Below, one piece after another: positions 7,236 through 9,227 of a stretch of DNA of 46,248 nucleotides. Each line of letters opens with the position of its first letter. The stretch's first letter is position 1. Origin of the DNA: Deltaproteobacteria bacterium (lineage in GTDB: Bacteria; Desulfobacterota; Desulfobacteria; Desulfobacterales; Desulfosalsimonadaceae); NCBI GenBank assembly GCA_013151835.1, contig JAADHK010000027.1, forward strand, positions 1 through 46,248, in the 5' to 3' direction. A program made the translations under genes and the position numbers. Under the pieces are notes generated by a model. It made no database searches. It saw nothing but the letters and a program-made list of their open reading frames with translations, and was not told where the DNA came from.

Positions 7236-7395
7236 GAGATTTTTATATCCTAATTTTGGGGTTCCGGCAAGGGGCAAACAGAACATATGAAGGATGCCCA
7301 AACAAAAAAATCGGACAAAAAAAGTATGGACAGCAGACGTATTAAAACGTAATCTACAGTTTTATGACACAATCAACCAGAAAAGGATGTTTAAG

Positions 7396-7545
7396 ATGAG
7401 TAATATGTTGGTGTTTTTAATAATTGTTGCCGTCTGGTATCTGTTGCAGGCGGTTATACTCCCGAAGATGGGGGTTTCCACCTGAATGAAAGATGCCTGT
7501 CAGGTGACGGACAAGAAGAAAGAAAAGGACAATACAAAGGTATGA
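7396..7545 (+). CDS. Candidate small membrane selenoprotein (in-frame TGA at 7483-7485)
   Basis: The conventional reading is a 29-residue peptide (7396-7485) with one strong transmembrane helix, MLVFLIIVAVWYLLQAVIL, followed by PKMGVST and TGA. AAGGA at 7383-7387 is well placed for ATG 7396. Reading the TGA as selenocysteine extends the frame 19 codons to a second TGA at 7543-7545, which overlaps the argS start codon as ATGA, the usual form of translational coupling. The 49-residue product would have Sec30 followed by MKDACQVTDKKKEKD, putting a Cys five residues after Sec in a polar tail, a plausible redox pair beside a membrane anchor. An inverted repeat CACCTGA/TCAGGTG (7479-7485 and 7500-7506) includes the TGA, and a smaller hairpin with a GUC loop lies at 7495-7505. 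Neither is a textbook SECIS. The existence of the short protein is likely; the Sec reading is inference. Confidence 0.5.
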
Positions 7546-9227
7546 AAGAAAGACTGAGAAAAATCATCATTGACGCGGCGAAACAGGCCCATGTCGCGGG
7601 AATACTGCATACCGACGTATTTGCCGGCGCGGTCGTTGAAGCACCGAATGTCGAGGCTCATGGGGATTTTGCAACCAATTTCGCCATGGCAAATGCCTCG
7701 GTTCTGAAAAAGCCGCCCCGGAAGATCGCCGGGATTATTCTCGAACACATCGATGATCCGGACGGGATTATTGAAAAATTCGAGATCGCGGGCCCGGGAT
7801 TTATCAATTTTTTTATACGGCCGTCGGCCTGGCATCCTATTTTATGTGATATCCACGAAAAAAAAGAGACCTATGGCGCATCCGATATCGGCAGGAATAA
7901 AAAGGTCCAGGTTGAATTCGTCTCGGCCAATCCCACCGGCCCGCTGCACGTGGGCCACGGCCGCGGCGCCGTGGTGGGAGACAGCTTGGCGTCCATCCTC
8001 GCTTTTTGTCAGTACGCCGTTACACGGGAATATTATATAAACGATAACGGGCGTCAGATCGACACCCTCACCCTCGGCCGTTCCGTTCATGCGCGGTGCC
8101 GGGAGCTTTCGGGCCGCGATGTTACATTCCCGGAGGACGGGTATAAGGGGGATTACGTTTACGATATCGCGCGGGATCTGTTGGAAAAAGACGGGGAAAA
8201 CCTGTTTGCGCCGGAAGAAACGGGGAGCGCCGATGCCGTAATCAATCGATGCGCCGAGTTTGCGGCCGCCGGTATTCTGGCCGGCATCCGGACAGACCTC
8301 GAATGCCTGGGGATCCGGTTTGATGTCTGGTTTTCCGAAAAGGGGCTCTACGAAAGTGGAAAGGTTCGTGATATCATGGAGGCGTTGAAACTCGACGGAC
8401 GGGTCTATGAAAAAGACGGCGCTCTCTGGTTCAAATCGAGTGATTACGGGGATGAAAAAGACCGGGTCGTAGTAAGGAGCAACGGGCAGACCACCTATTT
8501 CGCATCCGACATCGCCTATCACAGGGACAAGTTTGACCGTGGGTTCGACCGCGTGGTCGATGTGTGGGGCGCGGATCACCACGGGTATGTCCCCCGGCTT
8601 TCGGCGGCCATTGACGCCATGGGGTACGACCGGGAATGCTTCAAGGTGATTCTGGTGCACCTTGTAAACCTTTTGCGGGACAATGTTCAGATCGCCATGT
8701 CCACCCGTGCCGGAGAGTTTACCACCTTAAAGGACGTGGTGGACGAGGTGGGAAGCGACGCGGCCCGGTTTATCTTCCTTACACGCCACCATGAAAGCCC
8801 TCTTGATTTCGACCTTGATCTTGCGAAAAAAAAGACCAATGACAATCCGGTTTATTACGTCCAGTATGTTCATGCCCGGATTTCGAGCATATTGAAAAAG
8901 GCTGAGGCCGACGGATGCGCTGCGCCCAAAGCCGGCATTGCCCCCGACCTTTCAGGCCTTAATACCGTAGAAGATGTACGGCTCATGAAGCACCTGTCCA
9001 GATACCCGGGTATCATAGAGACTGCGGCTCTCATGATGGAGCCGCACAGGGTGGCCTATTTTCTCATGGAACTTGCCGCTGCATTTCATGCCTATTACAA
9101 CAAACACCGTGTCTTAACGGATGATCCCGATATGACGGTGGCCAGGCTGTACCTGGTTTCGGCCGTGGCCGTCGTTATAAAAAATGGTTTGAATCTTCTG
9201 GGGGTTTTTGCGCCCGAATCGATGTAG
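7542..9227 (+). CDS. argS: Arginyl-tRNA synthetase
   Basis: A class I aminoacyl-tRNA synthetase charging tRNA-Arg with arginine, 561 residues, usual bacterial length. The N-terminal Add-1 domain recognises the tRNA D-loop. The ATP-binding HIGH signature is HVGH at 136-139 within SANPTGPLHVGHGRGAVVGD. The KMSKS region is replaced by AMSTRAGEF, which is normal for this synthetase. The DALR anticodon-binding domain fills the C-terminus, with YYVQYVHARISSIL at its entry. The start codon overlaps the second TGA of the upstream candidate selenoprotein frame, so initiation may be coupled to it. An imperfect hairpin follows the stop. Confidence 0.97.
   Translation: MKERLRKIIIDAAKQAHVAGILHTDVFAGAVVEAPNVEAHGDFATNFAMANASVLKKPPRKIAGIILEHIDDPDGIIEKFEIAGPGFINFFIRPSAWHPILCDIHEKKETYGASDIGRNKKVQVEFVSANPTGPLHVGHGRGAVVGDSLASILAFCQYAVTREYYINDNGRQIDTLTLGRSVHARCRELSGRDVTFPEDGYKGDYVYDIARDLLEKDGENLFAPEETGSADAVINRCAEFAAAGILAGIRTDLECLGIRFDVWFSEKGLYESGKVRDIMEALKLDGRVYEKDGALWFKSSDYGDEKDRVVVRSNGQTTYFASDIAYHRDKFDRGFDRVVDVWGADHHGYVPRLSAAIDAMGYDRECFKVILVHLVNLLRDNVQIAMSTRAGEFTTLKDVVDEVGSDAARFIFLTRHHESPLDFDLDLAKKKTNDNPVYYVQYVHARISSILKKAEADGCAAPKAGIAPDLSGLNTVEDVRLMKHLSRYPGIIETAALMMEPHRVAYFLMELAAAFHAYYNKHRVLTDDPDMTVARLYLVSAVAVVIKNGLNLLGVFAPESM

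Follow-up and report, generated by a model that had tools for sequence, protein, structure and literature searches.

The window analysed here is the whole 46,248-nucleotide stretch of contig JAADHK010000027.1, from a deltaproteobacterial genome of the Desulfobacterota (GCA_013151835.1). On its forward strand a short reading frame, neighboured by an antiporter-like gene on the opposite strand and by argS, runs for 29 codons to an in-frame TGA, stays open for another 19 sense codons and closes with a TGA at 7543-7545 (Table 1). The coordinates confirm the arrangement given in the original prediction, namely a 29-codon membrane peptide, a TGA, 19 further open codons and an ATGA overlap with argS, and they identify the Cys noted five residues past the TGA as Cys35. 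Read through the TGA, the peptide would consist of one membrane helix, the segment LPKMGVST-U-MKDACQV and a Lys-rich tail, in that order. Translation of argS is possibly coupled through the ATGA to the stop of the upstream frame. The two window neighbours say nothing about function.

Table 1. Features of the candidate selenoprotein locus in the window
Feature	Position	Strand	Basis
Shine-Dalgarno-like AAGGA	7383-7387	+	Sequence; 8 nt 5' of ATG 7396
Predicted selenoprotein gene, 49 residues plus stop, MSNMLVFLIIVAVWYLLQAVILPKMGVST-U-MKDACQVTDKKKEKDNTKV	7396-7545	+	Translation; homologues in 160/395 phylum genomes
Predicted single membrane helix, residues 2-24	7399-7467	+	AlphaFold2 and hydropathy
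TGA, predicted to be read as selenocysteine (U30)	7483-7485	+	TGA in 111/111 phylum homologues extracted; Cys codon in six elsewhere
SECIS-like hairpin, apical loop AGGU at 7502-7505	7494-7513	+	Folding; family-wide excess over synonymous shuffles
Cys35 codon (U-x4-C)	7498-7500	+	First tail Cys at +5 in 96/111, at +6 in 8/111
argS	7542-9227	+	ATGA overlap with the selenoprotein stop; neighbour, not conserved partner

Conservation across the TGA and the downstream hairpin

A search with the peptide gave matches at E 0.01 or better in 46 of 60 relatives, each with one in-frame TGA, and a single row among them (L007) additionally spans its final TAA. In a further search, 395 genomes of the window's phylum, taken to be Desulfobacterota, were covered; residue 30 of the query was given as Cys to avoid disfavouring Cys forms, and 160 genomes matched. 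All of the approximately 150 matches listed out of these 160 contain the TGA, two of them also span a TAA, and none among them is a Cys form; the ten or so weakest matches lie outside this set. Loci were extracted for the best matches and, to represent many further families, for one or two members of each. A profile was built from 55 loci and the gene was recovered in all 115; after removal of four duplicates (L062, L121, L122 and L124), 111 distinct homologues remained. They are 45 to 73 residues long, with a median of 53, and a Shine-Dalgarno-like tetramer lies ahead of the start codon in 102.

The TGA stands at the same column in every one of the 111 homologues. As the final stop, 42 homologues have TGA, 41 TAA and 28 TAG, indicating that the carrier genomes are not restricted to TGA. 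The pattern that would have spoken against the prediction, a set of tail-less homologues closing at position 29 on differing stop codons, was not seen: the varied stops sit at the tail end, and the sequence is conserved past the TGA, the first point on which the original prediction had proposed to be checked. Relative to the TGA, Pro at -7 and Gly at -4 are invariant, Thr at -1 is present in 107 of the 111, and at the conserved residues the third codon position is variable and the second nearly fixed. The family motif at the membrane edge is P-[KR]-x-G-[VI]-x-T-U, followed by a short basic tail, usually with Cys at U+5. This partner Cys is not universal: four homologues have none within 12 residues past the TGA, the tails of L095, L096 and L129 containing no Cys and that of L073 only one at +21.

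The bSECIS model, in the form in which PMC13188914 describes it, has a loop of 3-9 nt with a G in the first two loop positions, an upper stem of 4-16 bp, a spacing of 16-37 nt and a minimum free energy of at most -7.5 kcal/mol. In the window, the lowest-energy fold from the TGA on is the hairpin CUGUC[AGGU]GACGG at 7497-7510 (-5.9 kcal/mol, z -1.76); its second loop base is G, and 16 nt separate the UGA from the loop. The short GUC-loop hairpin suggested originally, CCU-GUC-AGG, can be drawn, but the lowest-energy fold is the shifted one; the inverted repeat said to span the TGA is present as CACCTGA (7479-7485) and TCAGGTG (7500-7506). The caution that no textbook SECIS is found here applies to the folding energy of the window hairpin, which misses the -7.5 kcal/mol limit, but not to its geometry, which fits the model, nor to the family, which conforms to it. 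As a control, codons were shuffled synonymously with the protein held fixed. A simple scan for hairpins that have a G within the first two bases of the loop was positive in 105 of the 111 homologues, compared with 54 ± 5 in the shuffles (maximum 70, 200 sets). The full bSECIS description fitted 80 homologues, compared with 18 ± 3 (maximum 24, 20 sets), and the other 31 missed at least one criterion. For 92% of members the folding energy is lower than the mean of the shuffles, and the mean z is -1.28. AGGT (28) and GGA (21) are the loops that occur most often, and the loop of E. coli fdhF, which we take to be AGGUCU, resembles those of the family.

The genome of the window contains selB (364.8 bits), tRNA-Sec (76.5 bits), selA (E 1.8e-174) and selD (343 bits), each match being over its respective cut-off where one is stated, so that all four components named for checking are present. 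The selD gene (L164, G000:C88:20438-21367) has its own in-frame TGA, at TCGU, presumably the known Sec site, and is an internal positive control. Across the phylum, selA was found over cut-off in 355 of 395 genomes, comprising 153 of the 160 carriers versus 202 of the 235 non-carriers (Fisher P 0.002). The seven carriers lacking selA over cut-off, identified by eye from two tables, all have tRNA-Sec over cut-off. Because selA is so common in this phylum, its presence is a weak test.

Cysteine forms and a second phylum

The original prediction had named TGA or Cys codons aligned at position 30 as support, and both occur: Cys replaces the TGA in six homologues (L132, L133, L134, L145, L149 and L155), none of which is among the matches listed for the window's phylum. 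Three were found by scanning 84,980 species genomes with the pattern LPKLG[VI][SP]TC, taken from a nine-member alignment. Nine stretches matched, and three of the four listed (L132, L133 and L134) are true homologues that keep the same helix and motif. Since the pattern ended in Cys, the scan finds only Cys forms of that exact motif and is silent on Sec forms in other phyla. L135 was rejected as a chance match. The three records, all MAGs, are labelled Deltaproteobacteria (L132), Cyanobacteriota (L133, where a contig end cuts the gene) and Chloroflexi (L134); tRNA-Sec over cut-off is absent from the genomes of L132 and L134 and present in that of L133.

Sec forms were sought in three phyla, those of the window (395 genomes), of G448 (282) and of G450 (292). 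The phylum of L132's genome (G448), hereafter the second phylum, is taken to differ from that of the window; selA occurs in only 172 of its 282 genomes. The search matched 24 of the 282, and the profile check left 19 TGA loci in 18 genomes and Cys forms in four (L132, L145, L149 and L155). L161 and L162 gave no profile match and were set aside as chance. In the phylum of G450, three of 292 genomes matched, only G450 itself being real; L137 and L138, without a profile match, were rejected. The SECIS model fits 17 of the 19 TGA loci of the second phylum, a count made without a shuffle control, and the loop is GGTC in 12 of the 19. In L146-L148, L150, L152-L154, L156-L160 and L163 the tail becomes U-[MAT]-[VA]-P-...-R-R, the loop is mostly GGTC, and the Cys, where present, tends toward the C-terminus.

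In the second phylum, selA is present in 16 of the 18 TGA genomes versus 156 of 264 others (Fisher P 0.012), and tRNA-Sec scores at least 59 bits in sixteen of the 18, with G750 at 50.5 bits and G994 at 46.5 bits, the latter under the cut-off. G994 has selA, and G986 has tRNA-Sec and no selA. Only one TGA carrier, G750 (L143), has neither a selA match nor a clear tRNA-Sec match, and it counts against the selenocysteine reading; its assembly may be incomplete, or it may have lost Sec decoding. Among the genomes with Cys forms in this phylum, G746, G767 and G786 have both tRNA-Sec and selA, and G448 has neither. Cys therefore does not simply track the loss of Sec decoding, and the three genomes with both components point to Sec/Cys interchange within Sec-using bacteria.

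Neighbourhoods, possible function and alternative readings

The neighbourhoods of the family vary: the largest group of related neighbours spans 11 loci, and there is no constant partner family. A census was made of 116 of 147 same-strand nearby proteins, 31 spurious-looking ORFs being left out, and the list excluded 15 loci from groups of close relatives, SSB adjoining several of them. The most frequent Pfam domains were ECF sigma (8), 4Fe-4S ferredoxin (6), zf-HC2 anti-sigma (6), thioredoxin-like (5), thioredoxin (4), class I Glu/Gln tRNA synthetase (4), MobB (4), NrfD (3), 3D (3), cytochrome c7 (3), DUF302 (2), rhodanese (2) and DsbD/CcdA (2). Thioredoxin genes lie near L084 and L106. Of the Cys forms, L132 has a CcdA-thioredoxin fusion gene next downstream, L134 has a metallo-beta-lactamase/rhodanese protein upstream, and L149 is fused to DUF302; a DUF302 gene is also found downstream of the Sec forms L146, L154 and L159 of the second phylum. 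The DUF302 fusion and adjacency provide a lead to the function of both partners. Within the order to which the window belongs, seven loci (L004, L013-L017 and L057) have an ECF sigma ORF whose first start codon falls inside the Sec tail, 34-43 nt past the T of the Sec TGA. Six of them have an anti-sigma-like ORF next, and in six of the seven a Shine-Dalgarno-like AGGTGA lies within the SECIS hairpin.

The conserved TGA and tail, the excess of SECIS hairpins, the Cys forms and the Sec machinery all support the candidate selenoprotein reading, and on this comparative evidence positions 7396-7545 very probably encode a small single-pass membrane selenoprotein, with the UGA decoded as selenocysteine. 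The hairpin just past the UGA would help its decoding, giving the 49-residue protein. An AlphaFold2 model from a three-sequence alignment places a single helix at residues 2-24 and leaves the tail unstructured, with a mean pLDDT of 86 for residues 1-10, 83 for residues 11-20 and then 57 to 49. Where a thioredoxin-like fold around the Sec motif might be sought, the model, which past residue 20 is of low confidence and draws on three sequences, shows helix and tail; 49 residues would be too few for a thioredoxin fold. Over the 111 homologues the helix core has a mean hydropathy of 2.4, and from the LPK motif onward there are on average 6.6 Lys plus Arg, with a net charge of +2.6. According to the positive-inside rule, this Lys/Arg-rich segment would place the tail probably on the cytoplasmic side, a topology read from charge alone.

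In such a protein, U30 and Cys35 could form a selenenylsulfide/selenol-thiol redox pair at the membrane surface. This pair might exchange electrons with a thioredoxin/CcdA-type relay, and its reaction partner at the membrane might be an oxidant, a disulfide or sulfane sulfur. Such a role, that of a membrane-anchored Sec/Cys redox relay, is suggested by genes for thioredoxin, CcdA, ferredoxin, DUF302 and anti-sigma proteins near some of the loci. Housekeeping neighbours (SSB, tRNA synthetases, GalE-like proteins and others) are as frequent as redox ones, which counts against a relay, and we propose the role tentatively, as one that is rather less than an even prospect.

A version of the selenoprotein claim, rather than an alternative to it, gives the protein a mainly regulatory job, in which read-through or stopping at the UGA would report selenium or redox state to the overlapping gene. 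The ECF sigma ORFs inside the Sec tail of seven loci, the anti-sigma-like ORFs after them in six, the AGGTGA within the hairpin in six and the overlap of the frame's stop with argS in the window speak for such a job. The overlapping gene nevertheless differs between lineages, and the conservation of residues and the Cys forms point to a functional protein itself, making a mainly regulatory role unlikely. That the UGA/SECIS module is additionally a selenium-responsive switch, SelB-bound read-through or a stop deciding the use of the overlapping start, is similarly improbable; if true, one 50-codon gene would make a membrane redox protein and also report the supply of selenium or the redox state.

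A different account holds that the locus contains two short genes, the peptide stopping at the TGA and reinitiation at the adjoining ATG (TGA-ATG) making a Lys-rich 19-mer. The codon after the TGA is indeed ATG in the window and in 74 of the 111 homologues, CTG in 13 and GTG in three. It is otherwise CTC (4), GCT (4), GTT (3), GTC (2) or, once each, GTA, CTT, TTC, GCC, GGC, GCG, ATC or TTA; under table 11, ATC serves as a start only rarely. A second gene begun by reinitiation does not account for the 21 of 111 homologues in which none of the usual starts ATG, GTG, TTG or CTG follows. Reinitiation also provides no reason for the stop to be TGA and never TAA or TAG in 111 homologues, and leaves unexplained both the SECIS hairpins and the Cys codons that elsewhere make one continuous frame. 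We regard it as highly improbable.

Read-through of the UGA by a near-cognate tRNA, or under a changed code, is compatible with the reading frame alone, and nothing specific speaks for it. The Sec machinery of the window genome, the presence of selA or tRNA-Sec in all 160 carriers of the phylum, the SECIS-type hairpins, the TGA at TCGU in the same genome's selD, and Cys as the only residue observed in place of the TGA leave this explanation with very little likelihood. That an ordinary 29-residue peptide is followed by a frame open by chance within the argS leader has a negligible probability: 19 open codons are by themselves likely by chance and not significant, as the original prediction had said, but the tail aligns as protein across many families and two phyla with differing downstream genes, and the significance comes from this conservation.

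Comparison with known selenoproteins

The window peptide matched no family in Pfam and NCBIfam (June 2026), and 32 family members gave no match better than E 0.012 in the same two collections. Within Table 1 of PMC13188914, a 2026 table of 119 selenoprotein families, no motif or domain fits P-[KR]-x-G-[VI]-x-T-U-x4-C. A literature search for LPKLGV with selenoprotein returned no match; the remaining literature search was by topic, with several key papers, figures and supplements lying outside it. A widespread bacterial selenoprotein family thus seems to have been overlooked, since its frame looks like a 29-codon scrap, although an earlier sighting is possible. One early prediction method, by the account in PMC1242214 of its length settings, lowered its limit to 80 residues for the shortest targets, and many selenoprotein screens, according to the description in PMC13188914, look for Cys homologues. 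An apparent ORF of 29 codons, length limits and reliance on Cys homologues, which are few here, are plausible reasons for the escape. The family would add a single-helix protein of approximately 50 residues to the bacterial selenoproteins, would suggest that short-ORF filters and Cys-homologue screens overlook real families, and would offer selenium physiologists a directly testable membrane redox protein.

The eukaryotic SELENOK and SELENOS are likewise small, cross the membrane once and carry Sec in a polar tail; their Sec lies closer to the C-terminus and their motifs are other than those of the window family, and no homology is claimed. DUF302 (PF03625), fused to the Cys form L149 and adjoining Sec forms, is a separate domain outside the window's gene. 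The deep-Sep hypothetical proteins DG, DW and DF, predicted in Desulfosediminicola and Desulfosarcina, are domain-less selenoproteins as well, as PMC12013277 describes them. The motifs given for DG and DW, GUxG and GxU (PMC13188914), are unlike that of the window family, and DG, DW and DF are described as having many Cys homologues, DF having no TGA homologues (PMC12013277), so that by these descriptions the window family differs from all three. With the 119 selenoprotein families, as they are listed in PMC13188914, it shares a UGA for Sec, a bSECIS directly downstream, Cys counterparts and a Sec/Cys redox-type motif.
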